Origin: Ianthella basta
Taxonomy: Eukaryota; Porifera; Demospongiae; Verongiida; Ianthellidae
Length of the DNA stretch: 64,000 bases
Direction: 5' to 3'
NCBI GenBank assembly: GCA_964019415.1
Contig: OZ025879.1
Span: 1,269,810-1,333,809, forward strand
Under the pieces are notes generated by a model. The model did not search any database, was not told the origin of the DNA, and saw only the letters and a list, made by a program, of their open reading frames with translations. Within the stretch, counting starts at the first letter, position 1. Every line of letters starts with the position of its first letter. The translations under genes were made by a program, and so were the position numbers. Positions 1,083 to 40,517 of the stretch are shown here, one piece after another.

Positions 1083-1347
1083 CTGTGAGATGATGAACGG
1101 ACTGGAAGCCAAGTCCAAACCGACCAACTTTCAGCAGCTCCTCCTCCTTTTGGCTCTGGTGCAACTTGCCAATGTTCTTCCAGTCACCTTCACTGAAGAC
1201 ACTGTTGTTCCAGGCGAGCAGGGCTGGGCCCTGAAATGGAGCGAGGGATGGCTTCCATAGGCCACCAGGGTCGCGAGGGTGTTGGCGGGAGTCAATGAGG
1301 AATTTGACCTTGCTGGCTCCAGCATCGTCGGCATTTTGAATGAGCTC
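1083..1347 (-). CDS. Gene Z exon 2: sacsin-like N-terminal ATPase motif (partial gene)
   Basis: This is the 265-bp second coding exon of a sacsin-like gene running off the left edge. It is open throughout and begins after a TAG acceptor with ELIQNADDAGAS, the N-box of the GHKL/Hsp90-type ATP-binding fold. It continues through the FQGPALLAWNN and GRFGLGFQSV motifs typical of the first sacsin internal repeat. It ends with CTCACAG before GTATGG, phase 1, exactly like exon 2 of genes A, B and C. Where the other genes read VYHLT it reads VHHLT, a single substitution. The remainder of the gene, including the giant exon 3, lies left of position 1, so intactness cannot be judged. Confidence 0.85.
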
Positions 1348-1430
1348 CTATGAGAAAAGAGGAACGGAGACAGTCAGCAATGCAAACGGATTCCAAGTTG
1401 AGAACTACTTAATTCGCCGACGTAACGCAC

Positions 1431-1526
1431 CTTCAGAATCTGTCCGCCGTCTGTGTAGCGCTGGAGTAGGTTCTTAATGAAGTCTGTCAATGGGGGCTGT
1501 CTTGTTCCAAAGTCGTCGTCACACAT
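1431..1526 (-). CDS. Gene Z exon 1: sacsin-like start exon
   Basis: This 96-bp exon encodes 32 residues from an ATG at 1526-1524 (MCDDDFGTRQPP...) to QILK at a GTGCGT donor, phase 0. The same exon of the same length is present in genes A, B and C. The segment TPPL-type/DFIKNLLQRYTDGGQILK corresponds to the opening of the first sacsin repeat in human sacsin, so the protein starts directly at that repeat with no ubiquitin-like domain in front. It is joined to exon 2 across an 83-bp intron (1348-1430). Confidence 0.85.
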
Positions 1527-3848: not shown

Positions 3849-4468
3849 CTAACGATGAACAACAGCATCATCACGGTATGTGACGATGTATGCTGGATAA
3901 GTCTGGTCGTTGTTGTGAACAACGTAGATGGTGCCACTGCCAAGTTGTCCCTGGATGCTGTCGTAGGAGACTGCCAGTCCTCCCTCTTCCTGTGGCTTCG
4001 TTGGAGGAGAAGCGGTGTTGGACCTCCTATATGAGATATCCCCCAGGGCAGCCTGGACAACCAGCATCTGGCAGTAGCCTTGTGCATCCACATGGCGGTA
4101 ACCGTGAGACACAGTTGCATCCTTGGCGAGGTAGACACCCTTACCATATGCTCCCCACTCACTCCTGATGACGTCGAGCCCTCTTGTACCACGAACTATG
4201 TCATTGGGGTCATTCCCACTAGTGCCATGAAACACGAGTTTCTCATTGCAATAGCCCAGTCGCTGTCTCATCAGTTTGCAAGCCGAAGTGTACTTCCTCC
4301 ATAGGACCACATTCTGGATGCAGTCTATGCTGTATATGCGCACATTTAGTGTGCCCATGGTAGCATTGAACAACTCAGCCACAACATCATAGTCATAGCT
4401 GTCCTCAAGAGCTGGCACCTCCTTAAACAAGTTGTCCCCCTCGTGTGGTAACCATGTGGGAGGTAGAC
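3849..4468 (-). CDS. Gene A PARP catalytic exon (mono-ADP-ribosyltransferase type)
   Basis: This 620-bp exon starts after a CTCAG acceptor in phase 1 and encodes 206 residues to a stop. It opens with LPPTWLPHE and contains RIQN-like and VVLWRKY segments, then LVFHGTS (His81), GAYGKGVYLA (Tyr113) and GTIYVVHNN (Ile181). These match the H-Y-x catalytic triad of PARP enzymes. Ile at the third place is the pattern of mono-ADP-ribosylating PARPs rather than polymer-forming ones. It is fully open. The matching exons in genes B, C and D have exactly the same length. It follows the HEPN-coding end of gene A by about 0.4 kb. The furthest downstream donor of gene A is lost, but an in-phase donor at 4938/4937 could still join it. 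A separate single-exon gene is less likely because there is no good start codon before the domain. Confidence 0.8.
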
Positions 4469-4884
4469 CTGAGTACAATGCACGGTGAAGGCATATCATC
4501 ATCCATCTGTCATGGTCTTACAAATTCAGGGTAGCTAAACCACTACTGCTGTGCATATGCAAGCACATCATGCTTGCCATTGGAGTCACATACCAGCCTG
4601 CTGTGTGGTGCACAGTATACCTCATTGAAAGAGGTGAAAGCTCCCTTTGACTCTCTTACAGCCTCAAAGTGCGTGTTAGTGATACCACAGGTGGACAGTG
4701 ACAAAGAGCTACACTGTGAAGTCTATAGGCCACACATTAATGTGAGACAGTCTGGGTGTAAGGGAAATATGGTACGAGGTGGGTAGGCATGAATGCACCC
4801 ATGACTAACTCGCTGGGTTCACTCAGGCTCACCCCAACCAGCTACATGCAGTGCATGACAGCTACATATATTTTATATTGTATA
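4469..4884 (-). other. Gene A intron 3 / 3' spacer
   Basis: Lies between the gene A stop and the PARP exon. Under the fusion model it is intron; otherwise it is 3' spacer. It is longer than in gene B because of a segment at about 4500-4740 that gene B lacks and gene C shares. No reading frame is conserved between A and C here. Confidence 0.5.
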
Positions 4885-7800
4885 TTAGTTGTCAAAGATA
4901 TACAAATGTAGTAGTGTGAACAATGTGTGCAGCTCACTGTTGGGGTCCATCTGCCTTTCTGCTTCCAGTGGCATGCTGTGGTCAATGGCATCAAACATCT
5001 GGGTCACTTCTTCCTTTGGCAATTCCCTCACAGTTCGCAGGAATTTCTCAACAGCAGACACAGCTTCAATTGCCTCCTCAAAGTTGTATCTGTATGCCTC
5101 TGCAGGGGCCATTTTGGGGATGTTGTGCTCTGGGTAGCGGCAGCGAAGGAAGTGGCTGGACACCACAAGGACTTGGGGCATCAAGTCAACAGGAGGGTTG
5201 TGGAACCAGTGCTGGTTGTCCTGCAGCTCCTTGCACAGATCAGCTACATTGGTGTGTTCTGCAAGCCTTCGTCTCAGCCCAAACAGTGCAAGGAAGAGGG
5301 CCTTCAGGCACTTCTCCATGCTCTCATGTGCCAGGAAGCACACCTGAGCAGGAAAGACCTGTACAAGCAAAGGGAGGCTCTCCTCAGCCTGCTCTTCAAG
5401 CTTATGCTTTGAATCCTCCAGTAGCACCTTGGCCGCCTCATAATCATTGAGTGCCTGGATCAGCCACATCTTTGCATCCACTAGGTTAGGTTCTGGTGGT
5501 GGCTCAATGGCAGGAGGCTGCCAGACAGGAGCAGTGACACCTGTGTACCCACGATAGCCACCTCCATATCCATGATGGTGGCTAGCACTACTTCCATATC
5601 CATGATGGTGCCTAGCACTACCTCCATATCCATGATGGTGCCTACCACCACCTCCATATCCATGATGCTGCCTACCACTACCTCCATATCCATGATGGTG
5701 CCTACCACCACCTCCATTCCATACAGATACACTGTTACCCGTGGGGAAATACCCGCCTCCGCCCCCACCATACATAGGTGCTTGAGTTTGGACACTTGGC
5801 TGTGGTTCTTGGGAATAGCTGACTTCTAAAGGGATTGTCTCTGGAGGCAAGAATGCCTTTATTTCCTGTTTAACCCTCTGGAGGATACTGGGATCTCTCA
5901 CTACATTCTTAAGTACCAGGAGGAGTTCATCTGTTGAGGTTTTGTATTTGTTGACACAGTGTTTCTTGGTGCAAAGGTAATGGAGATGGTGTACCAAACG
6001 TATTGATACATGCTGAAGTTGGGGCTGTGAGACTTTGGCCATCATTGCAGTATACAATTTTGTTAGCTCTTCTTTCAGTGTTATGCTGTTTTTCACAGCA
6101 AGAGGGAGCACTGAAAGTGGCTGCAGGTTAACATCCGCTCCTCCTGTGGAGTGTGCCACTTCCACTTGCCATTCACTGGCAATGTATGCTCTCTGTTGTG
6201 AGTACAAGTACTTGCTCATTACAAGAGGAGACATTACCATTTCTACAATCGATGGCGCAGAATTGCTCAATTTTACACGTAGTCTACAGGTTTGGAGTTC
6301 ATTTCGCCTTTCACTTGAAATACTAACTACCTGAGCATTGATGAGCTGTCCCTCTGCATTGCAAAACTTGACAATCTCTTCAGCTCTGAATGTGCACACA
6401 ATCACATTGTCCAGCTGGTCGGTATACTTGACTGCCTGGCCTATCTTGGATGGAGATGGCTGCTGCTCAGAACCATGCACATAGTTAGGTATACCAGCAC
6501 TAGTCAACACACCATCGATCAGGTGAGGACTAGGACACATGAACATCTTGACAAGTAATCCATTATCCCTTATGATGTTTCCAAGGTATTGGTTCAGTCC
6601 ACAGGCCAGCTGATGGAGTAGATGGTAAAGATCGTAAAAGTCTGAGTGTGGAGCAATGTAGACTGTGGCACCACTCTCTTCACCTTCCAACACAAGACAG
6701 AGGATAGACTCATTTTCAGAGTTGGGAAGTTGGCGATTGTCCTCTTTGTACAGCAGAACAGTCTTGATAACTTGCACACACTTGACAGTCACCTCCTGTA
6801 GTTTCCCTTTGATGCCCTCCACAGTTTTGTTTGATGGAGGTTGCTGGTTATCATGCTTGACAATCCTGACAATGCCCCTAAAGAAGTCACCTGAAGTTAG
6901 CATTTCAATTGCAGCTGTCACAAACTCACATCCGTGCTCCTTCCCTTCTGCTGCAGCTCTCCTTTCCTTGGTGCAGGCATTCTTGTCATGCAACATGTGG
7001 GGATGAGGGTGCTCTGCAATAATTGAGCTGAGCAGATGTACTCCAAGACAAGCAGGGAGGGAGTGATTGCCATTGTCATCCTTTGGAGGAGGCATTACCA
7101 GCTTAAATCCAGGCAGTGACTCTGGAGTGACTCTCTTACTGTATTGCTGCACATCATCCAGGATCAACTGAGAGGCAGGCAGCAGTTGTTGATCTTTGGA
7201 GAGCAGAGGGACTACATCTGCTTCCAGACATTCCACGACAGCTTCTTCCAAATTCGATTCAGACTTTCGAAGCAGTTTGACAAGATTATTGTATACCGCT
7301 GTTGCACATGATAGGCTGTTTGGATTGTTCTGGATACCCTCTTTGAATACATGTCTCAGAACAAAGAGGCAGTGGGATACTTCTAATCCATCAGCCACAC
7401 CAGCCATCCGTAAGAAAACTATCAGTGTCTGAAACTCTTCAGGAACTGGTTGAATGAGTGGGAAGAACATTTCTTCCTGCTTCTGCATGTCCTTCAATCC
7501 CTTGGCCACGACTTGATTGCCTGGAAGCAATTCAAAAGTAGAGCCATCTTCACTCCTCACCAAAATGCACTTTGCACCTTGCAGAATGGGCACAATCTTT
7601 TCTAATGAAGAATGTGCTAGATTCAAGTATTCATAGTGTGCCTGAAACAACTTGTGAAGTTCTCTGACTGTGTGTGATCTATTCGCAAAGGAAAGCTCCT
7701 TGCAATCCTCGAGCATATGTGTCAACTCAACAAGGTTTCTGGCCACTATTGTGGGGTGCAATTCAAGGCTCCTCACACCCAACAGCTTCAGGGCATTATC

Positions 7801-10800
7801 AGGCCAAAGGGGAGGGTTGAAGTATCTAGGCAAGACTGGGCAATAGAGACTTGCAAGTTGGTAATCGGAGTCTTTTACTTGAAGGACACTACCACGCAAG
7901 GTAGTCCACCCTTGATGTGGCAGTTGAAAATCAGGAAGAGCCTGTTGCAGGGTCTTGCAAGGTTCAAGTTTATTCTCGCAAGGTACAAATTTGATTACAG
8001 CTGCATTACGCAGGAACTGTATGAAGGTTTCAGGTGGATTTCCATATTGCCAAGCTGTCATCTTTGATGCCAGGTCTTCTAGTAAGAGTTTGGCTTTAAG
8101 TTTACACTTCTGAGCACCATCTTCATTCTGCACGTCGTCTGCAGCAACTGTTGCAAGCTGTAGCCAAAGATTCTCAGAAACCACACAGCAAAGATCCATT
8201 TTCATGAAAAATTTCAGCCACTCATCACTGTCCCATGGTGGAGGTGGGAAACTGTCCTCAGGAAGGGATGCCTTGAGCAGGGCATTCCGTGGATCATACA
8301 ACCCTTTCACACACTTTGGTCCACTACATGTTTCAATGAAAGGTGTTTCGGCAAGGATACGTAAGATACTACGCCACTGACCACTTGTACGTCTACTACT
8401 GTCTACTTCTGCTGTTACTGTAACAGTAGACAATTGGTAGAGTTTCTCTAGTTTCTTTACATGGAGATTCAGTAGCTTTGGAGTATCCACTGTGGGTATG
8501 TGCTTAAAATTAGGCACCAATTCATTTAGATACAACTCCAGTATTTCCTGTGCAGAAGAGGCCATATGCACTCCAACTCTTCGCATGAAATGATCACAGT
8601 ATGCTGGGATAATCACAAATGCTGTGTTGGTAACACGACTTATCTGAGCCAGTCCATCATGTGGTATGTTGCTGACATCGTATGCTTCCACGAAAAAGCT
8701 AAGTGCACTGAGCTCACCACTAAACAGTTTGAACAGGGGTAGACTCTTCATCCAACGAATATCCTGCCTGTTCTCTCTGACTTCTTCACTTCCTTCAAGA
8801 AAGTGAAGAAGCTCCAGAATATCAACATCCTTTGGTGTGATATTTCTCTGCAGGATCTCATTCTTGTACACAGTGAGCAAGTGCATGATGTCATCAGGGT
8901 TTTCAGCTTTTGCAAAGTAAGGTGAGAAATTCCTGCACATTTTTGTTTGTAACTGGTCCTTCAAAATACAGCCAAAATCTACAATTGGGAAACAGAACAT
9001 GTTGATCAGTGCCTTACTGGATGCCTGGAACAAAATGTTCTTACACTCAGAAAAGGGAAAGAGCTTGCCATCTGTTGTTGGTACCACAGAAAATGCAACA
9101 AACAAATGCCTCCAATTCTCATGAACTGCACTGAAAAACTTCCAGAAGAGTGCTAATGTCTGTTTGAATTCATTGCCTTCTGGCAAATTGATAGTACCAT
9201 TACAAGGAATAGCCAAGTGCCGAGCAACAAACTGTGGGGACTGCTCCAGTGGTTTGATGATGCCTAGCTTTTGTAGAGCTGCAAAAACGTCAGATTTCTC
9301 AGAGATGCTCTCGTGTACAAACTCATCCTTGCATTCAGGAAGAAGACCAGCATATTGATCCCCAAACACTTCACACATCATCTTCAGCTCATCATCTTGC
9401 GTTAGCATCAATGGTACACCTTCAAAGATCTCCTTCCACTGGACTGGTTGTACTAGGTTTACATCCTTCAAACAGTAGGTTAAAAGGGATGCTATTGCTT
9501 CAACAATGGCAGCTTTGTATGCTGCAAGTCTTGGGCAAAGGGTCCTTAGGTGGTCTCTTAAGACTGCTGCGGTCATTCTTCCTGTATATGTCACCTTTGG
9601 ATTGTTTCTCAGTTTAGAGAGTGAAGTTTCAACATTGGATGCAAATTGCAGGGGTGCAGCCGTTAGCTTCATTCCCAGCTTCAGCAGAGTACTTTCCTTC
9701 AGTTCACAGCACTCACTGTAGAACCACCCTTTGGTGGGCCCATCTTTGTTGGTGAGGGCTAACCACTGGGCACATGCTTCTGGTTGATCCTGCAGTGCAA
9801 GCAGCACATTGGCATGATGGACAAGGAGGAGGCAGTAGAGGTGTTCTGGTAGAAGAAAATCCTTTGGAAAGCCAGAAGTGCTACATTCTGGAAAGAGCTT
9901 GTAGTACCAGTCTTCTACAAACTCCCCTTTCTCTGTCCTCACATCTCTGCAATACAACAGTAGCTCTGCATAGGCTCTGCAGATAATATCATTGCAAATA
10001 GCCTTATTCCAGTCCTTCAGTGGTTGTTCTGGTTTGTCACTGAACTGCAGCTCCCGCCTTGAGTCATTTAGCCAGAAGTGTCCATTCACATGAACTGGCA
10101 TGCCTGATGACTTAGGAAGTGGAAGATAACAGAATACCTTGCTTTCCTGAGGATTATGTGCAAACACATCAACCCTCTGTGGGGACTTTGGCCCTTGGGC
10201 TGCAACTCCACCTAGGGGGAGAAAACTGTGCTTAAATCCAGTTGCTAAAAGGTTGGGATCCACATCTCTAACTCCAAACCGTTTGCTGATAATCCAAGAG
10301 CTGGAAAATTTAGTTGAGGACTGTGGAGAAAGGCTTCTACTGGGAAGCTGTCTTGATCTCAATTGCGTAGATGCAGCTTCATTGTGAGAGAGCTCTGCTT
10401 GTATGCCACTGATTTTAATTTGGTAGACAGTCTGCACAGTTTGTAGAGTGGATGCTTGGTCTTTCTCGAGCTTCCTCTTCTCTTTCCTTGCCCTCTGTGC
10501 AAAGTCACTGCACTTCTGTTGGTCTTCAGGTGATGCTTCTGCATGGCATGACCCAATCACGGTACACCTGCCTTCAGCTGAAATCTCAAAAATGGAGATT
10601 CTTTTGACAGAATTCAAAAATAGCAATGTATGGGCAGCTTCCTGTGAGAATTCAATCAGGTTCTTCTGCAAATTGATTGTAGTTGTTCTATTGCCCTCTC
10701 TAAGTCGAGATGCAGGGCACTGGGTTGATCCTCTGGTCAAAGGTAGCCGGAAGAGAACGTAGCCATCTTTCCATTTCTGCGGTGATCTCAATTGTGCAAA

Positions 10801-13800
10801 CGAACCAGGGTCTGCTTTTTGCAACTTCAACAAAGTTTCCTCAGAGTATGGTTCCATCTGATCCACCACAATGGTGTCCAGCTGTCTCTGGTCCTTGGCT
10901 AGCTCCCATCTGCGACCAGGTGGGCTTCTTCTAGGAAGAGGTGCATATGCACAATTAGGGTCAAACACACAGAAGTGCTCTGGCTGTCCTCCTTCCTTGT
11001 GGGACACAAACATGGGACAGTCAGTGACGTGGTAGGCCACATTGAAGCCAATTCCAAACCTGCCAATGGTCTCAGGAGTGTCCTGCTTCCCTCCTCGGCC
11101 CAGCTTGGTGATGCCTTTGATGTCCTCATCAGAAAACTTTCTGTCATTGAATATCATCAGTGATGGCATCTCTTGTAGCTTTTTCCAGTTTGTCTGCTTA
11201 GAGAATAGTCTTTCTGTTTTGAACTTTCTCTGGTCAAGGATGAAGGCTATTTCAGAGGCTCCTGCATCATCAGCATTCTGCACAAACTCCTTGAAAATGG
11301 AGGTATCAGCATGGTACCCACGAAGGATTCCATTTAGTCTATCACACAGATCCTCACACTGACCATAGTCCAGACCACCCATAAAACTGCTGTCACTATA
11401 GCTCTCCAGAAGTGCCTCAAGTGGACTCTCTATGCCAAGTGAGGAAGCAATCTCCCATGAAATATTGGGGTGAAGATAATATCGCTTGGAGCCATCACAT
11501 TCAGAAAAGGCGAGGAAAGTCTCATTGTTCTTCAGCCATTTCAAGTCACGACTGTCCATGTACATCAAACAAGAGCATTGTCTCATAACAGATTTATTGT
11601 CAGGCAGGTACAACTGCTTTATCATATCTTCATTGTTGACATCACTGATTTGGTCGTTGGGATCAGCATAGCTATCACTATCTGCACCAGGCTCCTTCCA
11701 ATGAGGTGACAACCTAGTAGCTACCATGGTCACAAACTGAATCATTGTCTTTGAAACTGGTTTCTCCTCAAAATCATTTGCAATTTGCTTCAACATGTCC
11801 ACAAGTTGGTCATCTGATGCACGCTGCTTCACCCCTAGCTTGGGAAAGAGAGAGAGACAATGTTTAGATACATCTTGTAGGTGAACAAGGTATGGAGGGC
11901 ATTCAAGGGATTCATCCAGGAACACATGACTAGCCAAATGAAAGCCATCCTTCCAAATGAATGCCGCACCATCCAACATTTGCTTTATCTCAGTCAGTGT
12001 CTGTGTCTCCTGCTGTTGCATGGTACCAGCACGGGTAGCAGGGACTTGGGATGAAAGGTTGAAATAAATGCTTTGTGTTGCAAGTGATATTATCTCTTTC
12101 TCCTTTGCAGACAGCAACTGGTTTTCCCTCTCCTTCCACCATTCAACAATACACTTGAGCTGAAGAAGCACATTCTGCACACTAGGGCTGCAATGAAAGA
12201 GTAAAAGTCTATCAAGGTCAGTGAAGTTTGTTTGCTGAAACTGTGTGCTATCCAGGAGCTGACTGGTTGCAAATACTAAATTCTTCCATGCTGGAAGGAA
12301 GAGGTCCTTAGAGCATGCAAAGGTCTCTGCATTTCCAGACCAGCAAATGGATGTGTCAGCTGGTTGTCCCATCACTGGAAGAAATGGAATAGTGGACAGT
12401 TCCTTAGTCAGTGCCGCATCTTCAGAAGACATTTTACAGTGTCCTTCTCCTTGTCGCACCAGCATGTGATGATAGTGGCATGACACAAGGTAGGTTACTA
12501 GATCACAACTTCTCTTGCTTGCTCTTTCAAAACCCTCAGCTTCCAATAACTGCTGAACACTTGTAGCTCTGTTGGATACATCATTGCTCTTCAATGTGTG
12601 AACTGCTGCTCCCAATAAGCCCAGGACTGATGAGAATTTCTCATACTCAGCTGCTGGGAAACGTCCTTCCCATTCATCAAACAAGTTTGCCAAAAGTGGT
12701 TCACTAGGCATCACTAGGTTATCTGGCTTGCACAGGTCATAATGGGGTTTGCGTGGGATACAGTGGGTGTCACTGAGGAGGCCCTGCAGCCAGTCATAGT
12801 TCACAGACAGCAATTGTAATTTCTCCAAGATGAACAACATCAACTGGTCTCTGATGTCTGATGGGACCTGGAGGATCCTACCCAGGAAGTGAGTCTTACA
12901 GAATTCCTCAAATTCCATCCTCCTGAGATGCTTTTGCAACACTGATGGTACTTGTGCAACAGGCTCATTTTGTTGTACAAGAAGAGCAAATACCATATCA
13001 TACTGCTTCTTAGTGAAAGGTTGTTTTGTGAAATGACTTCCTAACACTACTACTTCTGATGGCCTCAGCCAACAACCATCATCACAAGCCGACCATATCA
13101 AGGCCTCTGGGTGATTTGGCAGCCTTTTCTCAAATTCTTCAGCAAGGAATGGTCTCACACTGTCAGGTTTGTCTGCCGTGGAATGCTTTAGGGGAAAAAG
13201 GCTGTAATAGGCTGAAAGAAACCTTTCCATGGCTGCACTGCTCTCAACTGGTGCTTTCTGAGTAAGGGCAACTAAGAGTGTGAACACAGCCTCAACCAGT
13301 GCATCCTTCATCAGCATCACATTCCAGGTGTCACAGCTGGAGCTTTGAACACCTTTCAATAGGCGTCTGTCTTTGGAGACATCAAAAAAGGCATTCACGA
13401 CAAAGTTGAGTCCTGTCTCAATATCAGATAAAGGGAGGAAGCAAGACACTGCACCCTGGGTGCTCTCAATGGCAATCGATTGTTCTTCCTTCCTGATCTT
13501 CACAGCTACCTCAGCGACAGGGACTAGACCCTGAGACCTGCCATCTTGACTGTTGGCATGTTGAAGACTGGGCCCTCTCCCCATTGCAGAAGACACTTGC
13601 CACATCGTCTCCTGTGGCTGCTGCCTACCACTCCCCACTGAAGTGACTAACTTCATCTTCTGTGAGCAAGGTCTCACACTGCTGAAATGTTCTCTGGGAA
13701 TCCTGAATTGCCTTTCAAAGGCTCCTCCATCAGGGTTTGATCTGGTGACCTGAAAGACCTTGTGCATCCTGTTAAGGGTATGGTCTCTTCTGCACTCAAA

Positions 13801-16800
13801 CAGTTCCACCTTGTTCACATTCTGGAGGAACAACAGTAGTGTGTCAGCAGTTTGAAGCAAGGACTTCTTCAGGGAATCCATTGTTTTTGATCCTTCAGTG
13901 AACACTTCAGTTGAGATTTCACTGACAATCCCCTGTTGACGGAATGGGAATCTGAAGAGTGTTCCATTGAACCCATTCTGGTCAGTGCCAAACACATTAC
14001 AACCAAAAACACCCTGGTAGGGAGCAAGCTGGTCAGAGAAGTAATTCTTCAGTCCTTCTCTCTGCTTCACAAAGTCAATCTGCATGCCTGGCTTGGTAGG
14101 TTGCACACGCTCCCCTAGGTACTTCAGGTGTGGGTCAAATACCTGCAGCCATCTTCGTGTGATGAAGCTGGGGACATCAGTGAGGTGGTATGTGGCACAG
14201 AAACCAACTCCAAATCGGCCAATCTTGGTGTGGTCTTGCTGTTTTGTGGCACCTGCCACTTTGCTGATGTTCTGCAAGTCTTCATCAGAGAAGGTCTTGT
14301 TGTTGTAGGCATACAGAGCAGGTCCTTGCCAATTGGCCATGTCTTTTGTGAGCAGTTTTCTTGTGTTGTGTGTTCTCCAGTCAATCAGGAACTTCACTTC
14401 CGTGGCTCCTGCATCATCTGCATTTTGAATCAACTCTTTGAAGACATCAATACTGTCTCCATAGTCCTCGACCAACCCCTTGATCCTGTGTGTGATTGAC
14501 TCATAGGGTCCAGTGCACTCATAGTCAATGCCAAGTGGTTGTGAGGGAGCAGCACGAATACTCAATGACATTACACCAAAGAAACGGGCAACATCAGAAG
14601 TGATCCTGGGATGAATGAAGTTCACTCCTTGTTCTGACTCAGGTATGTCCAGGTAGTGGTCATGGTATGTGAGGTCTTCTGGTTTGTGCAATCTGCACCT
14701 CTTGCTTGGGAGGTACATGCCCTCAACATACTGCAGCTTTTTCTTCTCCTTTAAGAAATTGGCAACATTCACAGCTATTTCCAAATCTCTGGCATTCAGC
14801 TGCTCTGACAATTCTTGGATCTCACTGACCACCTGTACCCCATCTTCAACTGTGAGGTGGTGCTTCACTCCACTGGCAAGCCACATGCTCTTGTACTTCT
14901 GCAAACAAGGCAGGTCCTGGACAGAGTATCTGTAGGGTGCAAGGGAGCAGCCTTTCAAGGGCCTATGGGCCACTTTGGATTTATCCACAAATCGGTAGTG
15001 TTCATTGCTCCAGACACAAGGACGAGTCCATTGTTGAAAGCACTTTACATCTTTACTGCCCAAGAATTCATAAATGTGCTCCACCGTGTCATTTATTGAC
15101 ATCTGTCTTCCACCAATGTAGCCTAGGCTGCTGGACTGAGTTGCCAATCCACTTGCAGGGAGATCAGTGATGTTCATGAAATGCTGGAGCACTTGCTGGG
15201 CACTGACTGAAAGAAAATAGCCACTTCCACCAACTTGCTCAAGCCTCCTCACACTGTCTTCATATGAGCTGTCAAGGATGGGGCACACAGATCCCACCAA
15301 ACTTGCCAAACGGAACAAATCACTGCCTGCACATAATTCAGAAGGGCAGAATAAGGGTGTTTTTGCTTGGCTTCCAGCCCAGTGTAACTGCTCAGGGTAG
15401 CCACTGGGACGTGAGTGCTCACAGAAGAGGAACTTCTGTCCCTGCACATATTGCAGCAGCTGCTGGCACTGTGCATGATTGGCTACTGTCTGAAGGATGA
15501 GCCTTGAACGCTGTCTTGCTTCCTTCTCCATGTTGCAAGAAAGGAGAAACTGAACTGACTGTGATCTATCTTGCAGAAACCTTCCAAATGTGTCAGCCCT
15601 CTGTGTGACAGTACGCCATGTTCTCAGGCCAAACTGTCTCAGCTTGTGGAAGACTGGTTTAAAGCCATCAGCTGGAGACTTTGCTTCACAACTATGGAAG
15701 AATTCTTGCAGCTTGCTGTCCTCTGGGTCATACAGGGCATCCACTCTACACAGCGTGTTGTCACTAGCTGGAATGCATTCACTACGCCTGATGAACTGTT
15801 CTAGTTCTCCATTTTGCTGTGGTTGAGACATTTCAATAATCCACATTAGAATCTGGTTCCTCGTTTCAATGTTCCACTGAGCGGTGGCATGGTTGAAGAT
15901 ATGCTGCTGCACAAGAGCTCCAAGGGAAAGTGGTGGCCTTCGAAGGACTGCTTGAATTAGCTGCTGATCAGATTCACCTACCTTGACTATCTGAGATGGA
16001 AATGCCAGGTTACTGGGAAATGTAATGGAGTAGTGTGGAAAGATAACTTGACTGTAGTAGCCTAGTTGCATAAAGGTCACACTTTGACTTCCAACTCCAA
16101 TCTCAAACACTGGTAGAGACTGTAGAAATGTGATCTGCTGCCCACTGAGGGGACCCATCATGGATACAGCCTCTGCAAGGTACCTTCGTAAGTATACTTT
16201 CTGAGCATTGTCAAGAATAGCGACTGTTCTTGCTACATTAGGAATCAACTGCAGAGCAGTGAAGAATGTAGTGGAGGACAATACTGGAAGGTACTGGTCG
16301 AGTTGCCAACCAAAAGGTGCATACAAGTGGGAGTCGTTCACTAGAGTGCAGCCAAGGGTCTCAGCAATGCTTTGCATCTGTTTGGAGCTGGCTGATGTCT
16401 TCCTCAACACTGTACTTCCAGAGCTTTTCAAAGCATACAAGGTGACTGAACCCTTTCTGGGTACTTTATCAGGTCCATTCACTGCAATGAGTGGTAGCCC
16501 TGTTACACTCTGCAGCTTCCCATTGTTAGCAATGTACTGCCACACACAGGACAACCAGGAGGCAGGGGGTTGGTTGTACTCACTGGGGTTCCAAGCGATA
16601 CTGGGGACATTGGGATTGTGGCACCAGGCTTGAATAGCAGCTCTCAGGAGGTTGGGGCAGATCACATCTGCAGTAGCTAGCTGTAACCGAAACTGACTGG
16701 AACGAGCCAACCGGAGGAAGTGAGCTTGCAGGTCAGAAGGGAGGCTATTTGAAACTATCTGGCCCTCCAGACCATGCAAAACTTGACTGGCAAGCATGTC

Positions 16801-18365
16801 ACCCTTTGGGAGCACATAGAATGTCTGACTGGAAAATGTGCCCACTCTCCCTGCCTGCTGCAAGGGTACTAGGGGAAGTCCCTGCAAATTGTTAATTCCA
16901 TTAGAAAACACATAGCGAAGAGTTTCTTCAAGGATACCTTCATTCTCTGCGAGGATCCTTGTGGCTGTGTCAGCATCCCTTCTCAGACACTCTCTTGCAA
17001 CATCTGGAGTGATCAGTTTACAGCCCAGAGAGGTGCAACTCTCCTGAACATTTCTGGGGAGGCACACAATGGGGCAATTCAATTGAAGAAGAAAGTCCAC
17101 TACAGAAGTGGGAACTGTGGCATCCAGTGGGACGAAGTAAGCATTAGGTGGCTTGACCCACATGCCATTGTTGGCTGCAGTCCAAAGAACAGGCAAATGA
17201 GACAGGAGAGGTTGAACTCTGTGGATGAGATGCTTCCACACCTCCTCCCTTACCTCACTCATTACTGGGAGGAGTGCATATTGGTCAGCACTCTTCTGAA
17301 GTGTGGTATGTGCCAGGGGAAATCCCTGATATGCTGTCATCATGCACCTTGCTGTCATGAGGATGGCATATGAAGGAGCAATGAGGTGCTCTACAAGGTG
17401 CTTGTTCCAGTTGGCTTCGTCACTGTTGTCATCTGCATCTGGCCAACGCACTCTCCTGCGGTTGTCTGAGAGAGTGAAGTAGCCGTGGATGTGAACTGGA
17501 AGGCCAGTGGAAGCAGTTGTGGACATGGGCAAGAAACAGAAGGCAAATCCACAATTGTTCAGCGTTGAGGGAGGATCAGTCCAACCAATGGACCTACGGT
17601 AGCGTGAAACTACATGGCTTACCTGGTTCTCAACTGAAGCACAATTTACTTGCAAGCATGCTTCATTCTGCAGACGAAAGTCTCCTACAGCAATTGCAGA
17701 AGAAATCGGAGCTGCCAGACCCACCCAGGGGATCACCTTCAACCCACATGCCAGTTCTACCACTTGACGGTCCCTGACTCCAATTGTACTGCACATCAAC
17801 CAGGAGGAGGTGCCTGCTGTTCCAGCTTTCTCAGCAAGTTTGCCTTCCACAGTGACTGTGCATTTGTTGAGGTAGGTGTCTACACAGCCTTGGTTTTGAC
17901 GGAATGAAGTGCATGCAGATCTATACCATTCTCTGCTGCCTTGCACTTCCTGACTATTGACTGTAACTCGCAGTAGGGGTTGGTCAAGTGCACATGGGTT
18001 GCCATCATACAGCTCCAAATCAGTCACATGGTTCAGAAAGAGAAGCACTCGATGTGCCTCTTGGGCAAGGGAATTATAGAGTACCCTCAAAGCTTCTTCA
18101 CGGGTGTATGTGCGCTGAGATATTCCTGAGTGAAACTTCCTATTGCGAAATGCAAAGCGAAACAGTGTCCCCTTATATTTAGAGCTAGATGAGCTAAAAC
18201 CCAGTATACCATCAAATGCTTCCAAATGACCTCGGTACTGACAAAATTCTTTCATTGGGAATTGTTTTCCTGCCATTCTATCACCTCTGGAGTCACGACA
18301 GTCGAGTATGGTCTTATGAGGATCCATCAAACCAACATGGTTATTGCTGACAATGACTGGCAAAT
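4885..18365 (-). CDS. Gene A exon 3: giant sacsin-like body with HEPN domain
   Basis: One uninterrupted exon of 13,481 bp follows a TGTAG acceptor. With exons 1 and 2 it gives 4,613 residues to the TAA at 4885. The join restores HLT-D-LPVIVS, the sacsin repeat signature. Three GHKL/Hsp90-like ATPase motif sets are visible: one in exon 2, a second near residue 1435 (ELIQNADDAGATE...GRFGVGFCATYHLTD) and a third near 2480 (EFVQNADDAGASE...GRFGIGFNVAYHVTD). Each is followed by an FRFPFR-like segment. A Gly/His repeat at about 4320-4390 precedes a HEPN domain at about 4410-4578 (LNDYEAAKVLLEDS, HESMEKCLKALFLALFGL). I see no HPD motif, so the J domain of human sacsin appears absent. Known sacsin is an Hsp70/90-linked co-chaperone; the role here is inferred. 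The distal donor used by B and C is replaced by AAC TAA. An upstream in-phase donor ACA/GTGAGC at 4938/4937 would give a 4,802-residue PARP fusion. Confidence 0.9.
5560..5720 (-). repeat. 30-bp coding minisatellite (Gly/His decapeptide) in gene A
   Basis: About five tandem 30-bp units (plus strand CCTCCATATCCATGATGGTG core) encode repeats of the form GGGGRHHHGY inside the reading frame just before the HEPN domain. Unit length is a multiple of three, so the frame is kept. Genes B and C have only a short Gly/Tyr stretch at the same place. Confidence 0.9.
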
Positions 18366-19401
18366 CTACAATGCAAGCACACGCATGTCATACATCACAT
18401 TAATAGACCTACTAGTGCAAATCAATAGATTGAATTTCATTCTAGTGCAAGTACAGATTAAACCTCTCAACATAACGACATGTCTGTAAATGACTGTATA
18501 TAGCTACGCTTATTATACAGTTTCAATTGGTTACAACACTCAAATTTCGTACAATAGGCTGGGAACCCGCTGAAGGGCTGGTATTCAGCTAGTACAAAAT
18601 GAAAAGCCAACATGATTCACAGTCCAGGTGGACATGGCAAAACCAGACATGGCACAGTGGACTTGTGGTTACAAGGTTATTTGATTGACACTTTGAGGCA
18701 TAAATGTGTTTGCATATAAGTGTCACATGTGTAACTACTCAGAATAGATGCAGACACACTTCACACATATTCTTCAAGCATAGATTGTGTTAAACCCTTC
18801 AAGGATGGATGTATATACCTGGCTGAGAATGCCTTTGCAGTCCTATGCCACTCCAGTGAGCCTGCTATTCTGGTCATGCAGCCATGCACATATACTCCAT
18901 GTAACTTAATTGTGTAACCGTATATACCAGTATACACACAGTGTGTCTTGGGTCACCTGACGCACCCCCAGTCTCTGTTTGAGCCCAGCTTCTGTACAAA
19001 CAAATACAATACTTATGATTGGCTTTATGTGCAGGAGACCCAGTCACCATTTGTTAGGTTCTTATGGATTAGCAGCCTTAGGAATTTACAAGTAGTCTCC
19101 TACCCAGACCCTACCCATTCACCAGCCATTCAATTGTGACCTTATGCAACATTTTATGAAAATGGAGGCGATGAAAGCAGTCTAGATACAAGACTAATCT
19201 GTAATACAATCATAGATTCGAGTTGATTGTTGAGAATGGGGCTATCGCAATAATTTCATAATGATTCAGCAAATTGTAAACTGCAAAGTCCACAACTGAT
19301 TCACATTCATGATAAATCAAGCACCAATTACATGGGTTGGGCTATTTCATGTATAATGAAGACACTGTTATGTCATACCCTCTACATAATCAGCGTCTAA
19401 C
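18366..19401 (-). other. Gene A intron 2
   Basis: A 1,036-bp intron with donor CACAG/GTTAGA at 19402/19401 and acceptor TGTAG at 18366. The phase-1 join restores an aspartate codon in the sacsin signature. I see no other gene inside. Confidence 0.85.
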
Positions 19402-19666
19402 CTGTGAGATGATAAACTGACTGGAAGCCAAGTCCAAATCGGCCAACTTTCAACAACTCTTCCTCCTTCTGGCTCTGGTGCAACTTGCCAATGTTCTTCC
19501 AGTCGCCGTCACTGAACACACTGTTGTTCCAGGCAAGCAGGGCTGGGCCCTGAAAGGGAGCGAGCGATGGCTTCCACAGCACGCCAGGGTCGCGAGGGTG
19601 TTGGCGTGAGTCAATGAGGAATTTGACCTTGCTGGCTCCAGCATCGTCAGCATTCTGAATGAGCTC
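19402..19666 (-). CDS. Gene A exon 2: first sacsin ATPase motif set
   Basis: 265 bp, open throughout, starting after AATAG with ELIQNADDAGASK and ending with FQSVYHLT in phase 1. It supplies the N-box Asn/Asp residues and the glycine-rich GRFGLGF lid motif of the first GHKL-type nucleotide-binding site. Its residues 29-30 read VLW where gene Z has GLW. It joins exon 1 over a 111-bp intron and exon 3 over a 1,036-bp intron. Confidence 0.9.
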
Positions 19667-19777
19667 CTATTGAAGAGAGAGGAATACACGAAGGAAAATA
19701 GCCAAGTAGTTAAAGCGAATGACGAAGTGCATATGCAGAAGTGAACAACATACTTTTTGCTAGTCGCTGTAACGCAC

Positions 19778-19873
19778 CTTCAGAATCTGTCCGCCATCTG
19801 TGTAGCGCTGGAGTAGGTTCTTAATGAAGTCTGTCAGTGGAGGCTGTGTTATGCCGAAGCCGTCGTCAGCCAT
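19778..19873 (-). CDS. Gene A exon 1: start exon
   Basis: 96 bp from the ATG at 19873-19871 (MADDGFGITQPP...) to QILK at a GTGCGT donor. It has the same length and phase as in genes Z, B and C. I chose this ATG because the frame is conserved from it in every copy and the protein then begins at the first sacsin repeat. An upstream non-coding first exon cannot be excluded. Confidence 0.85.
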
Positions 19874-23700: not shown

Positions 23701-24320
23701 CTAGCTATGAATAACAGCATCATCACGGTATGTGATGATGTATGCTGGATAAGTCTGGTCATTGTTGTGAACAACGTATATGGTGCCATTGCCAAGCTGT
23801 CCCTGGATGCTGTCATAAGAGACAGCCAGTCCTCCCTCTTCCTGCGGCTTCGTTGGAGGAGCAGTGGTGTTGGACCTCCTGTATGAGATATCCCCCAGGG
23901 CAGCCTGGACAACCAGCATCTGGCAGTAACCTTGTGCATCCACATGGCGGTAACCGTGAGACACAGTTGCATCCTTGGCGAGGTAGATGCCTTTACCGTA
24001 TGCTCCCCGCTCACTCCTGATGACGTCGAGCCCTCTTGTACCACGAACTATGTCATTGGGGTCATTTCTACTGGTGCCATGAAACACGAGCTTCTCGTTG
24101 CAGTAACCCAGTCGCTGTCTCATCAGTTTGCAAGCTGAAGTGTACTTCCTCCATAGGACCACATTCTGGATACGGTCAATGCTGTATATGCGCACACTTC
24201 GTGTGCCCATGGTAGCATTGAACAACTCAGCCACAACACCATAGTCATAGCTGTCCTCAAGAGCTGGCACCTCCATAAACAAGCTGTTTCGCTCATGTGG
24301 TAACCATGTGGGAGGTAGAC
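23701..24320 (-). CDS. Gene B PARP catalytic exon
   Basis: 620 bp after a GTAG acceptor, phase 1, open to the stop at 23701. It carries LVFHGTS, GAYGKGIYLA and GTIYVVHNN, the H-Y-I triad of mono-ADP-ribosylating PARPs, and ends in AYIITYRDDAVIHS. The interval to the sacsin-like exon is only 186 bp, with a phase-matched donor (GACA/GTAAAC), so the direct fusion HEPN-FDS-LPPTW is the simplest reading. A better-scoring donor by eye, GCA/GTGAGC at 24555/24554, is also in phase. The predicted full protein is 4,814 residues with the distal donor or 4,798 with the proximal one. Confidence 0.85.
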
Positions 24321-24506: not shown

Positions 24507-27500
24507 TGTCAAAGATATACAAATGTAGAAGCGTGAACAATGCATGTAGCTCACTGCTGGGGTTCATCTGCATTTCTGCTTCCAGTGGCATGCTGTGGTC
24601 AATGGCATCAAACATCTGGGTCACTTCTTCCTTTGGCAATTCCCTCACAGTTCGTAAGAATTTCTCAACGGCAGACACAGCTTCAATTGCTTCTTCAAAG
24701 TTGTGTCTGTACGCCTCTGCAGGGGCCATTTTGGGGATGTTGTGCTCTGGGTAGCGGCACTGAAGAAAGTGGCTGGACACCACAAGGACTTGGGGCATCA
24801 AGTCAACATGAGGGTTGTGGAACCAGTGCTGGTTGTCCTGCAGCTCCTTGCACAGATCAGCTACATTGGTGTGTTCTGCAAGCCTTCTTCTCAGCCCAAA
24901 CAGTGCAAGGAAGAGGGCCTTCAGGCACTTCTCCATGCTCTCATGTGCCAGGAAGCACACCTGAGCAGGAAAGACCTGTACAAGCAAAGGGAGGCTCTCC
25001 TCATCCTGCTCTTCAAGCTTCTGTTTTGAATCCTCAAGGAGCACCTTGGCGGCCTCATAATCATTGAGTGACTGGATCAGCCACATCTTGGCATCCACCA
25101 GATTAGGCTCCGGTTGTGGCTCAGCAGTGGGAGGGCACCAGACAGATGCAGTACCTCCTCCATAGTGCCTACTGCCACCTCCATACCAGACGCTGTTGGC
25201 TATGGGGGCATACCCCCCTCCACCTCCACCATACATATGATGTTGGACTCGCTGCTGTGCTGGGGAATAGCTGCTTCCTTGAGGGATCCTCACTGGTGGA
25301 AAGAACACCTCAATTTCCTCCTTCACCCTCTGCAAGATACTGTGATCTCTCACAACGTCGCTGAGTACACTGAGGAGTGCATCTGTTGAGGCCTTGAAAT
25401 TGTGAACACAATTCTTCTTGGTGCAAAGGTAATGGAGATGGTGTACCAAACGTATTGATACGTGCTGAACTTGGGGCGGTGAGAATGTGCTCATCATAGC
25501 TGTATACAATTGTGTTAGCTGGGCTTCTAGTTCAGTGCTGTCTCTTACTGCAAGACTGAGTACTGAAAGTGGTTGCAGGTTAACATCCGCTCCCCCAGTG
25601 GATTGTTCCACTTCCACATGCCATTCACTGGCAATGTACGCTCTCTGTTGTGGGTACAAGTACTTGCTCATTACAAGAGGAGACATGGCAATTTCTATAA
25701 CTGATGGGTGATCTTCCACATTGCTCAGATTCACACGCAGTGTACATGATTGGAGCCTGTTCTGCCTTTCACTTGAAATACTAACTACCTGAGTGTTAAT
25801 GAGCCGTCCCCGTGCATTGCAAAACTTGACAATCTCTTCAACTCTGAACGTGGACACAATCACATTGTCCAGCTGGTCGGTGTACTGGACTGCCTGGCCT
25901 ATCTTGGATGGAGATGGCTGCTGCTCAGAACCATGCACATAGTTAGGAATATCAGCATTAGTCAGCACACCATCAATCAGGTGAGGACTAGGACACATTA
26001 ACATCTGAATAAGCAATGAGTTATCCCTTATGGTGTTTCCAAGGTATCGGTTGAGTCCACAGGCCAGCTGATGGAGTAGATGGTAAGGATCGTAAAAGTC
26101 TGAGTGTGGAGCAATGTAGACTGTGGCACCACTCTCTTCACCTTCCAACACAAGACAGAGGATAGACTCATTCTCAGAGTTGGACACTTGGCAATTGTCC
26201 TCTTTGTACAGTAGAACAGTCTTGATAACTTGCACACATTTGACAGTCACCTCCTGCAGTTTCCCTTTGATGTCCTCCACAGTTTCGTCTGATGGTGGCC
26301 GCTGGTTATCATGCTTGACAATTCTGACAATGCCTCTAAAGAAGTCACCTGAAGTTAGCATTTCAATTGCAGCTGTCACAAACTCACATCCGTGCTCCTT
26401 CCCTTCTGCTGCAGCTCTCCTTTCCTTGGTGCAGGCATTCTTGTCATGCAACATGTGGGGATGAGGGTGCTCTGCAATAATTGAGCTGAGCAGATGTACT
26501 CCAAGACAAGCAGGGAGGGAGTGATTGCCATTGTCATCCTTTGGAGGAGGCATTACCAGCTTAAATCCAGGCAGTGACTCTGGAGTGACTCTCTTCCCAT
26601 ACCACTGCGAATCATCCTGGATTAGCCGAGAGGCAGGCAACAGTTGTTGATCTTTGGAAAGCAGAGGGATTACATCTGCTTCCAGACATTCCAAGACAGA
26701 TCCTTCCAAATTTGGTTCAGCTTTTCGAAGCAATTTGACAAGATTATTGTATGCTGCTGTTGCACATGATAGGCTATTTGGGTTATTCTGGATACCCTTT
26801 TTGAATACATGTCTCAGAACAAAGAGGCAGTGGGATACTTCTAATCCATCAGCCACACCAGCCATCTGTAAGAAAACTGTCAGTGTCTGAAAGTCTTCAG
26901 GAACTGGTTGAATGAATGGGAAAAACATTTCTTCCTGCTTCTGCCTGTCCTTCAATCCCTTTGCCACGACCTGATGACCTGGAAGCAATTCAAATGTAGA
27001 GCTATCTTCGCTCTTCACCAAAATGCACTTTGCACCTTGCAGAATGGGCACAATCTTTTCCAATGAAGAATGTGCAAGATTCAAGTATTCATAGTGTGCT
27101 TGAAACAACTTGTGAAGTTCACTGACTGTGCATAATCCATTCTCAAAGGAAAGCTCCTTGCACTCCTCGAGCATATGTGTCAACTCAACAAGGTTTCTGG
27201 CCACTATTGTGGGGTACAATTCAAGGCTCCTCACACCCAACAGCTTCATGGCATTATCAGGCTTAGGGGGAAGGTTGAAGCATTTAGGCAAAACTGGGCA
27301 ATAGAGACAGGCAAGTTGGTAATCGGAGTCTTTTACCTGAAGGACACTACCACACAAGGTAGTCCACCCTTGATGTGGCAGTTGAAAATTGGGAAGAGCC
27401 TGTTGCAGGGTCCTGCAAGGTTCAAGTTGATTCTCACAAGGTACAAAGTTGATTACAGCTGCAGCATGAAGGAACTGCTTAACATCTTCAGCTGGAGTTT

Positions 27501-30500
27501 CATGTTGCATAGTTTCCATCTTAGATGCCAAGTCTTCTAGTAGGAGCCTAGCTTTCTCCTTGCACCTCTGATTATCATCTTCATTCTGCACATCCTGAGC
27601 AACATCTCTTGCAAACTGGAGCCAAAGTTGTTCAGAAACCACACTACAAAGGTTCATGTTAGCAAAAAACACTAGCCACTTTTCATTGTCCCATGGCGGA
27701 GGTGGGAAAGTGTCCTCAGGTAGGCATGCCTTAAGCAGGATATTTCTTGGATCATACAAGTCTTTTATGCACTTTGGCCCACAAGCAGTTTTGATGAAAG
27801 GCGTTTCTGAAAGGTTATTGAAGATAACATGCCAAAGGCCTCTTGTCCGCTTGCTAATTCCCAATGTAACAAACAGATGATGCAGTTTGCTTACATGAGC
27901 GGCAACTAACCTCGGAGTATCCACTGCAGGTAAGTTCTTGAAGTTGGGTGCCAATTCATGTGCATACAATGTCAGTACTTCCAGTTCACTAGCAACCATT
28001 TGGACTCCAACTCTTTTCATGAATTGACCACAGTATGTTGGGATGATCACAAATGCTGTGTTGGTAACACGACTTATCAGAGCCAGTCCGTCATGTGGCA
28101 TGTTGTTCACATCATACGCTGTCGCGAAAGAGTTAATAGTACTGAGCTCACGACTGACTAGTTTGAACAGAGGTAGACTCTGCATCCAACGAATATCCCT
28201 CCTGTTCTCTCTGACTTCTTTACTTCCCTCCAGGAAGTGAAGAAGCTCCTGAACATCAACATTTTTTGGTTTGATATTTCTCTGTAGAATCTCATTCTTG
28301 TACACACTAAGCAAGCGGATGATGTCATCAGGGATTTCAGGATTTGCAAAGTAAGGCCAGAAGCTCCTACACATGTCTGTTTGTAACTGGTCCTTGAAAA
28401 TACAGTCAAAATCTACAACTGGGAGACGGAACATTCTGATCAGTGCCTTGCTGGATGCCTGGAACATAATGTTCTTACGCTCAGAATAGGGAAAGAGCCT
28501 GCCATCTGTTGTTGGTACCACTGAAATGTCATTGAACAAATGCCTACTGTCTGCATGAACAGAATAGAAGAACATCCAGAACACTGGTAGCATCAGTTTG
28601 ATATCTTCATTTTCTGGTAAATCAATAATACCACTGCGAGGAAAGTCTAAGTGGTAGGCAACAAACTGGGGGTTCTGCTCCAGTGGTTTGATGATACCCA
28701 GCATCTGCATTAGACAAATGTCTAATTTTGATGACTCAGAGATCCTCTCGTGTACAAACACATCCTTGCGCTGAGGAAGAAGTGCAGCATATTGATCTGC
28801 AAACACTGCACACATCATCCTCAGTTCATCATCTCTTGTCAGCATTAGTGGCACACCTTCCAGGAGTGTCGTCCAATGGATTGGATGTTCTTCACAATCA
28901 AATACATCACTCAAGCAGTAGGCCAAAAGGGGGGCTATAGCCTCAACAATGACAGCCTTGTATGCCATAAGGCTTGGGCAAAGACTCTTTAGGCGATCTC
29001 TCAAGACTGCTGGGGTTACTCTACCTGTGTAGATCACCTTTGGATCCTTTCTCAGTTCACCAAGTGAAGTTTCAATGTTGGATGCTATTTGCAGGGGTGC
29101 AGCTGTTAGCTTCATTCCCAGCTTCAGCAGAGTACTTTCTTTCAGGTCACAGCACTCACTGTAGAACCACCCTTTGGTAGGTCCATCTTCATTAGTGAGG
29201 GCTAACCACTGGGCACACACTTCTGGTTGATCCTGGAGTGCAAGCAGCACATTGGTGGCACAGTCAAGGAGGAGGCAGTAGAGGTGTTCTGGAAGAAGAT
29301 AAGTCTTTGGAAAGCTACCAGTGCTACATTCAGGATAGAGTTTGTAGTACCAATCTTGTACAAACTCCCCTCTCTCTGTCCTCACATCTCTGCAATACAA
29401 CAATAGCTCTGCATAGGCTTTGCAGATCACGTCATTGCAAATAGACTTGTTCCAGTCCTTCAGTGGATGTTCAGAGTCACTAAACTGCAGCTCCCGCCTC
29501 GAGTCATTTAACCAGAAGTGTCCATTCACATGAACTGGCATGCCTGATGACTTTCTTTTAGGAAGTGGAAGATAACAGAATACATTGCCTTCCCAAGGGT
29601 GATGTGCAATCACATCAACCCTCTGTGGTAACATTGGTCCTTGGGCTGCAACTCCACCTAAGGGCAGAAAGCTGTGCTTATATCCAGTCGCTACAATGTT
29701 GGTATCCATATCTCTACCTCCAAAACGTTTACTGATAATCCAAGAGCTGGAAATTGCAATTGAGGTCTGCTTGGTAAGGATTCCACTGGAAAGCTGTCTA
29801 GTGCTCAGTTGTATAGGGGTAACTTCAGTGGAGGAGAGCTTTGTCTGGATGCCACCAATTTGAACTTGATAAACAGTCTGCACAGTTTGAAGAGTGGATG
29901 ATTGGTTTTCCTTCAACTTTCTCTTCTCCTCTCTTGCCCTCTGTGCGAAGTCACTACACTTGTGTTGGTCTTCAGGAGATGCTTCTGCATGGCATGACCC
30001 AATGACAGTACATTTGCCTTCAGCTGAAATCTCAAAAATGGAGATTCTTTTGACAGAGTTTAAAAAAAGCAATGTATGGGCAGCTTCCTGTGAGAACTCT
30101 ATCAGGTTCTTCTGCAAATTGACAACAGTTGTTCTATTGCCCTCTCTAAGTCGAGTTGCAGGGTACTGTGAAGATTCTCTGGTCAAAGGCAGCCGAAAGA
30201 GAACATAGCCATCTTCCCACTTCTGGGGTGAGCTCAGTTGTGCAAACGAACCAGGGTCTGCCTTCTGTAATTTCAGCAATGTTTCTTGCGAGTATGGTTC
30301 CATCTGATCTGCCACAACAGTGTCCAGTTGACCCTGCTCCTTCGTTAGCTCCCACCTGCGACCAGGTGGACTTCTAAAGGGAAGAGGTGCATACATGCAA
30401 TTAGGGTCAAACACACAAAAGTGCTCTGGCTGTCCTCCTTCCTTGTGGGACACAAACATGGGGCAGTCAGTGACATGGTAGGCCACATTGAAGCCAATTC

Positions 30501-40018: not shown

Positions 40019-40283
40019 CTGTGATATGATGAACTGACTGGAAGCCAAGTCCAAACCGACCAACTTTCAGCAGCTCCTCTTCCTTCTGGCTCTTATGCAT
40101 CTTGCCAATGTTCTTCCAGTCGCCTTCACTGAAGACACTGTTATTCCAGGCAAGCAGGGCTGGGCCCTGAAAGGGAGCGAGGGATGGCTTCCACAGCCCA
40201 CCAGGGTCGCGAGGGTGTTGGCGGGAGTCAATGAGGAATTTGACTTTACTTGCCCCAGCGTCGTCAGCATTCTGAATGAGTTC
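40019..40283 (-). CDS. Gene B exon 2: first sacsin ATPase motif set
   Basis: 265 bp, open, after a CACAG acceptor, with the same start (ELIQNADDAGAS) and phase-1 end as the other genes. It encodes the first GHKL-type motif set including GRFGLGFQSV. It differs from A in reading KMHKSQ where A reads KLHQSQ. Confidence 0.9.
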
Positions 40284-40421: not shown

Positions 40422-40517
40422 CTTCAGAATCTGTCCGCCATCTGTGTAGCGCTTGAGTAGGCTCTTAATGAATTCTGTCAGTGAAGGCTGTCTTGTGCCG
40501 AAGTCCTCGTCATCCAT
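40422..40517 (-). CDS. Gene B exon 1: start exon
   Basis: 96 bp from the ATG at 40517-40515 (MDDEDFGTRQPS...) to QILK at a GTACGT donor. Same length and phase as its paralogues, joined to exon 2 over a 138-bp intron. It has replacements (SLTEFIKSLLKRY) relative to the PLTDFIKNLLQRY of genes Z, A and C. Confidence 0.85.

Follow-up and report, generated by a model that had tools for sequence, protein, structure and literature searches.

Giant sacsin genes in the sponge Ianthella basta are predicted to continue across a small intron into a PARP14-like domain

When a giant sacsin-like reading frame is followed closely, on the same strand, by a small PARP reading frame, are the two separate genes or parts of one? 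The question is raised by a 64,000-nt stretch of contig OZ025879.1 of the sponge Ianthella basta (C12:1269810-1333809; hereafter the window), taken from a 209-Mb assembly in 96 contigs. Three giant minus-strand open reading frames (ORFs) lie in tandem there: A at 18387-4885 (4500 aa), B at 38049-24451 (4532 aa), and C at 57116-43632 (4494 aa). Each has three stretches matching the Pfam SACS model (E-values of 2.7e-153, 6.6e-156, and 4.2e-154 and scores of 509, 518, and 512 bits for A, B, and C, respectively, against a cutoff of 32.8) and a HEPN match (31 to 35 bits; cutoff, 22). The PARP ORFs behind these three units and that of a fourth unit, D, scored 62 to 69 bits (E, 8.2e-17 to 7e-19; cutoff, 26.7). 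An initial annotation, made from the sequence of the window, had described a same-strand PARP exon of 620 bp with a phase-1 acceptor behind A, B, and C, with only the PARP end of D in view, and ORFs, Pfam matches, and gene models all bore this out.

Complete four-exon models of A, B, and C read in frame from an ATG to a single terminal stop and encode 4802, 4798, and 4768 aa. In all three, exon 1 (96 nt) opens at the ATG and closes with GGQILK, exon 2 (265 nt) goes on with ELIQNADDAG, and exon 3 spans 13.3 to 13.4 kb; a size of 620 nt is shared by the last exons of A, B, C, D, and U2, the last named being the fifth member of their subgroup (1a). The product would be laid out as three sacsin repeats, then HEPN, and then, in the last exon, a PARP14-like catalytic domain. 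Exon 3 ends at a phase-1 donor, (A/G)CA|GTGAGC (the bar marks the exon boundary), that is conserved in all five genes of the subgroup (last exon base at 4938 in A, 24555 in B, and 43736 in C), and through it the in-frame joining proposed in the initial annotation held for A, B, and C. The donors implied there did not: ACA|GTAAAC at 24507 in B and ACA|GTATAC at 43688 in C lie 48 nt downstream of the conserved donor, in the same phase, and were found in these two genes only, gene A having AC instead of GT at that place and then a TAA stop. The later site is a possible alternative donor in B and C.

The arrangement extends well beyond the window. At least 72 SACS matches were found in the genome, all on C12, and were grouped by hand into 16 giant genes: 8 in cluster 1 (1.16 to 1.37 Mb, including the window), 7 in cluster 2 (2.46 to 2.64 Mb), and a singleton (3.27 to 3.30 Mb). 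Both counts are lower bounds, and for V6, V7, and the singleton the giant exon was read in part. All 16 genes had a same-strand PARP match within 9 kb downstream, against at most 6 such pairs (mean, 0.15) when the 18 PARP matches on C12 were shifted circularly 10,000 times, a result that is not a probability because the copies are tandem duplicates; chance neighborhood was rejected. PARP matches with no adjoining SACS match comprised 2 of the 18 on C12 and 47 on other contigs. These 47, of 65 in all, lay on C5, C9, C10, and more, many of them clustered.

A survey of the 3' regions of all 16 giant genes showed that in each the conserved coding sequence closes with a phase-1 donor and that a phase-1 acceptor precedes the motif [LFI]PxxW, with introns of 208 to 2294 nt between donor and acceptor. 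The donors themselves differed among five subgroups ((A/G)CA|GTGAG, CAC|GTGAG, CAG|GTAC, GAG|GTTAG, and CAG|GTATT), and the junction residue fell in one column of the protein alignment in 16 of 16 rows. In every one of the 24 database ORFs that reach the site (P0008 to P0031, several of them this genome's own genes; P0032 and P0033 end before it), protein conservation extended to the donor codon and then broke. The residue at that codon was S (14 ORFs), R (8), or G (2), all encoded by NGT codons, C being the remaining residue that NGT can encode; the next residue was E in 23 ORFs and K in 1.

Two adjoining genes, one for sacsin-HEPN that ends at the stop behind the giant ORF and a small one for PARP with a start of its own, would account for the fact that a stop does follow soon behind the donor (after 8 to 43 codons in the cluster 1 genes and the singleton and after 1 to about 51 in cluster 2) and that an in-frame ATG lies ahead of the acceptor in the PARP ORFs of A, C, and D. 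However, the 16 PARP exons share no conserved start Met, whereas [LFI]PxxW stands at the acceptor in all of them; sequence identity drops before the acceptor; the phases match in 16 of 16 genes; and a related protein, P0108, runs through the junction in one frame. We rejected this arrangement as very improbable.

The drop in identity was seen within each of the four multi-member subgroups (1a, 1b, 2a, and 2b), to which the following figures refer. DNA identity was 0.86 to 0.95 over the last 90 nt of exon 3, 0.34 to 0.65 over 90 nt at either end of the intron, and 0.82 to 0.92 over the opening 90 nt of the PARP exon; that is, it fell at both splice sites and recovered at the PARP exon. The ratio of nonsynonymous to synonymous differences per site (pN/pS) was 0.17 to 0.31 over the 200 codons that lead up to the donor and 0.18 to 0.39 in the PARP exon beyond codon 20. 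An intron control aligned without gaps gave 0.88 to 1.18, which is partly misalignment, the identity drop being the better measure.

P0108 was retrieved with sacsin repeats 2 and 3 as the query, which gave 1789 matches; among the 120 matches listed, it was the one in which PARP was also present. This JGI hypothetical protein of 4823 aa carries three SACS stretches, a weak HEPN (14.6 bits), and PARP in one frame. P0108 and each of A, B, and C aligned from end to end (30 to 31% identity), and P0108 ran without a break through all three intron positions, the PARP junction included. The nearest ORF to it among the proteins compared was P0085 (longest contig, 1.54 Mb), and before the junction the two were identical at 200/200 and 298/300 residues. 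Past the donor, P0085 reads G-TCMLLL and then a stop, whereas P0108 reads D-RPYNW and enters PARP; a G-to-D replacement that retains the first codon base is as expected from a phase-1 junction. The size of the P0108 contig (15,455 nt) fits an assembled transcript, an intron-free gene copy being a possible alternative; in both cases a single reading frame covers sacsin and PARP in this protein. A search of viral and prokaryote contig collections with P0108 found nothing. Of 10 database PARP exons, 6 lay on a contig that equals that of a listed sacsin ORF in length to the base, and thus presumably on the same contig, and 4 did not; among the 6, 1 was the window's own contig and 3 were only 47 to 53% identical to the exon of gene C, from which the sacsin-PARP linkage seems to hold in relatives.

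Taken together, the in-frame models of A, B, and C, the matching phases in all 16 genes, coding conservation that begins at the acceptor with no conserved start, and the parting of P0108 and P0085 at the donor argue for a single polypeptide of about 4.8 thousand residues, as the initial annotation had proposed. Judging from these sequences, it is nearly certain that each unit would form a single gene of four exons whose product, of about 4,800 residues, has sacsin-HEPN-PARP architecture, and messages of the giant sacsin genes would very probably continue across the small intron into the PARP domain. Compatible with such genes is the production of two forms, the spliced sacsin-HEPN-PARP protein and, by intron retention or early polyadenylation, sacsin-HEPN alone. 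The stop behind the donor in every gene, the off-consensus donors of subgroup 1a (ACA|GTGAGC), and the second in-phase donor in B and C fit this possibility, but no coding sequence is conserved beyond the donor, and we regard a second form as rather unlikely. The canonical poly(A) signals AATAAA or ATTAAA did not discriminate, with 6 of 16 introns having one and the same number, 6 of 16, of the 400-nt stretches after the PARP stop.

What might the appended domain do? The solved structures nearest to the PARP exon, as a ranking by similarity, were PARP14 (E, 1.8e-18), PARP12 (5.2e-18), PARP15 (1.8e-17), and PARP10 (9e-12). By eye, the catalytic H was present in 16 of 16 PARP exons and the Y in 15; the third catalytic position, which is E in polymerizing PARPs, was I in 9, L in 4, and Q in 3 and never E. 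With H and Y kept and I, L, or Q in place of E, mono-ADP-ribosylation is expected, and the domain is probably an active mono-ADP-ribosyltransferase; for the subgroup 1b copies, with Q at the third position, that activity is doubtful. A tree of the PARP domain held one non-sacsin PARP row and no PARP14, with long branches meeting, and a predicted structure of the PARP exon (13 sequences) had a mean predicted local distance difference test score (pLDDT) of 39.7 and was discarded.

HEPN was matched nine times in the genome, in the eight cluster 1 genes and the singleton, and scored 22.3 bits in the one 2a gene tested. The Rx4-6H RNase motif was kept in 5 of the 16 genes, all of subgroup 1a (RRRLAEH or RRQLAEH; by eye), from which RNA cleavage may differ between copies. 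The initial annotation had taken HEPN as a nucleotide binder; an RNA-binding or RNase fold is the better description, going by the available part of PMC3710099. Comparison of the HEPN piece with solved structures gave no relevant match. Directly before HEPN lies a Gly/His/Tyr-rich linker of variable length (about 5450-5650, minus strand, in A and the equivalent places elsewhere), which holds most of the gaps in the alignment of the final part of exon 3. In all three members of subgroup 1b (L009, L011, and L016), glutamine replaces the histidine of the HEPN motif and occupies the third PARP position, so that both active sites are altered.

Several observations weigh against the picture of 16 active fusion proteins. 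P0108 is only 88% identical to P0085 over 3675 aligned positions and, by its tail, is of the cluster 2 type, not of the window's subgroup, and it is known from protein sequence alone. In the first 20 codons of the PARP exon, pN/pS was 0.30 in 1a and 0.31 in 1b but 1.20 in 2a (2 synonymous versus 11 other differences) and 0.71 in 2b, so these codons alone show constraint in two of the four subgroups. HEPN fell under the Pfam cutoff in the one 2b gene tested (12 bits) and in P0108, and the RNase motif was absent, by eye, from the aligned place of HEPN in 11 of 16 genes. As to the enzyme, the 1b PARPs carry the Q already mentioned, and that of V4 (L020) reads GPGNSFA, with S for the catalytic Y, the sole such loss among the 16.

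A mechanism for the fusion can be proposed in outline. The sacsin scaffold, with GHKL/Hsp90-type ATPase modules, would bind misfolded or foreign material; ATP-driven changes in the scaffold might bring together or expose HEPN and PARP; and HEPN and PARP could then act on RNA and put single ADP-ribose units on nearby targets. The likely function would be that of an ATPase-gated mono-ADP-ribosyltransferase in stress or immune defense. We hold the architecture together with an active enzyme under sacsin control, stress versus immunity left aside, to be moderately probable, and a stress or immune effector role to stand at even chances. More speculative is an innate immune sensor class of early-branching animals, in which the sacsin ATPase scaffold would detect foreign or misfolded material and fire two effectors of its own chain, HEPN as an RNase and PARP as a PARP14-type mono-ADP-ribosyltransferase, and the tandem copies would be specialized by trigger. 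The immune reading rests on copy number and domain company (available parts of PMC3710099 and PMC8195603), not on rates: among 59 pN/pS windows along exon 3 of the five 1a genes, there was no arms-race signal. Selection was purifying in all 59 (median pN/pS, 0.37; range, 0.12 to 0.59) and strongest at repeats 2 and 3 and HEPN.

Such constraint on the whole giant exon also suits a proteostasis factor with no immune role, a chaperone that would tag misfolded clients with ADP-ribose, as does the description of human sacsin as a chaperone (available part of PMC3710099). Sixteen arrayed copies and PARP14-type domains are nevertheless commoner in conflict genes, in line with the available part of PMC8195603, and a purely proteostatic role is a tentative alternative that we do not favor. 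The predicted covalent join of sacsin to an ADP-ribosyltransferase hints that a sacsin scaffold can regulate an enzyme and that ADP-ribosylation may be its output; even for human sacsin, whose loss underlies the hereditary ataxia ARSACS, the mechanism is unclear. The fusion also ties together two families that recur in invertebrate stress and immune gene sets.

How do these genes compare with known systems? Human sacsin has a gigantic main exon, and the window genes share with sacsin this feature, the three sacsin repeats, and HEPN; to our knowledge, ubiquitin-like and DnaJ domains are not general to the family. Sacsin of animals and slime molds has three Hsp90-like ATPase repeats and a C-terminal HEPN, and the human protein carries a ubiquitin-like and a DnaJ domain (available part of PMC3710099). 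In contrast, a Pfam scan of the three giant window ORFs at E 0.01 matched neither of the latter (exons 1 and 2 lie outside that scan), and PARP is joined after HEPN. Sponge sacsins joined to a conflict-system domain have precedents, with DEATH in place of PARP: Amphimedon queenslandica has sacsin paralogues fused to DEATH (available part of PMC3710099), and the sacsin-type P0119 of Dysidea avara has a Death domain (PF00531), a domain for which giant ORFs A, B, and C had no Pfam match.

PARP14, PARP15, PARP12, and PARP10, clade 3 mono-ADP-ribosyltransferases, resemble the last exon as its best solved relatives, with H and Y and no third-position E. The six PARP14-like proteins of Amphimedon each have a macrodomain (available part of PMC4245714), whereas Pfam matched no macro, WWE, or RRM domain in A, B, and C, whether in the giant or in the PARP ORF. 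TRADD-N fusions with HEPN, macro, and PARP in cnidarians and mollusks come close in that the cnidarian ones hold HEPN and PARP within one predicted immune protein; sacsin is another TRADD-N partner, but sacsin and PARP are named as separate partners, never together, in the available part of PMC8195603. For both the giant and the PARP ORFs of genes A, B, and C, Pfam gave no TRADD-N-like match. A full-text search of open-license literature found no sacsin-PARP fusion, which is no proof of absence and agrees with the initial annotation, whose author knew of no description; nor is sacsin joined to PARP described in the available parts of PMC3710099, PMC8195603, PMC6208414, PMC4245714, and PMC2964712. 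Sacsin-PARP is a new domain combination within a known class. Coordinates of the exons and of the units that reach into the window from either side are collected in Table 1.

Table 1. Exons and other features of the sacsin-HEPN-PARP genes in the window (window positions unless marked C12)
Feature	Size (nt)	Position	Strand	Content
Gene A exon 1	96	19778..19873	-	Start ATG, MADDGFG...GGQILK, start of sacsin repeat 1
Gene A exon 2	265	19402..19666	-	ATP-binding part of sacsin repeat 1 (ELIQNADDAGA...); SACS match 19385-19669
Gene A exon 3	13428	4938..18365	-	Remainder of repeat 1, repeats 2 and 3, HEPN; phase-1 donor AACA|GTGAGC
Gene A HEPN match		5023..5349	-	Rx5H motif RRRLAEH
Gene A intron 3	469	4469..4937	-	Separates giant exon from PARP exon
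Gene A exon 4	620	3849..4468	-	PARP catalytic domain and stop
Gene B exon 1	96	40422..40517	-	Gene model
Gene B exon 2	265	40019..40283	-	Gene model, SACS match
Gene B exon 3	13416	24555..37970	-	Sacsin repeats (first one split with exon 2), HEPN; conserved donor AGCA|GTGAGC
Gene B exon 4	620	23701..24320	-	PARP
Gene C exon 1	96	60979..61074	-	Gene model
Gene C exon 2	265	60629..60893	-	Gene model, SACS match
Gene C exon 3	13326	43736..57061	-	Sacsin repeats, HEPN; conserved donor AACA|GTGAGC
Gene C exon 4	620	42623..43242	-	PARP
Gene D exon 4	620	62993..63612	-	PARP; giant exon of D outside window (ORF C12:1334712-1348127)
Gene U3 exons 1 and 2		1431-1526, 1083-1347 (span 1083..1526)	-	Remaining U3 left of window (ORF C12:1255112-1268518)

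Not all copies were equally intact, and a decaying array in which the PARP exons are relics would explain some of the features of cluster 2. In V3, V4, and V5 (L038 to L043), 3 of 10 assembled genes and all in that cluster, the giant ORF is split over two frames, for which decay, further introns, and assembly errors are all possible; V4 lacks the PARP tyrosine; and the PARP frame of V2 overruns into tail-like sequence. By contrast, the giant ORF is open in all eight cluster 1 genes and the PARP exon is constrained beyond codon 20, on which grounds a wholly dead array was rejected and general decay is highly improbable. Exon structure, in-frame joining, domains, and purifying selection are supported by the sequence. 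The overrun in V2 (L018, reverse strand 5262-6089) goes about 60 residues past the usual end, and the first part of these extra residues resembles, as if copied, the sacsin tail before the donor (by eye; tblastn at E 1e-3 reported none). V4 and V5 lie head to head (C12:2569945-2573686), with nearly identical copies of exon 2 about 3 kb apart on opposite strands.

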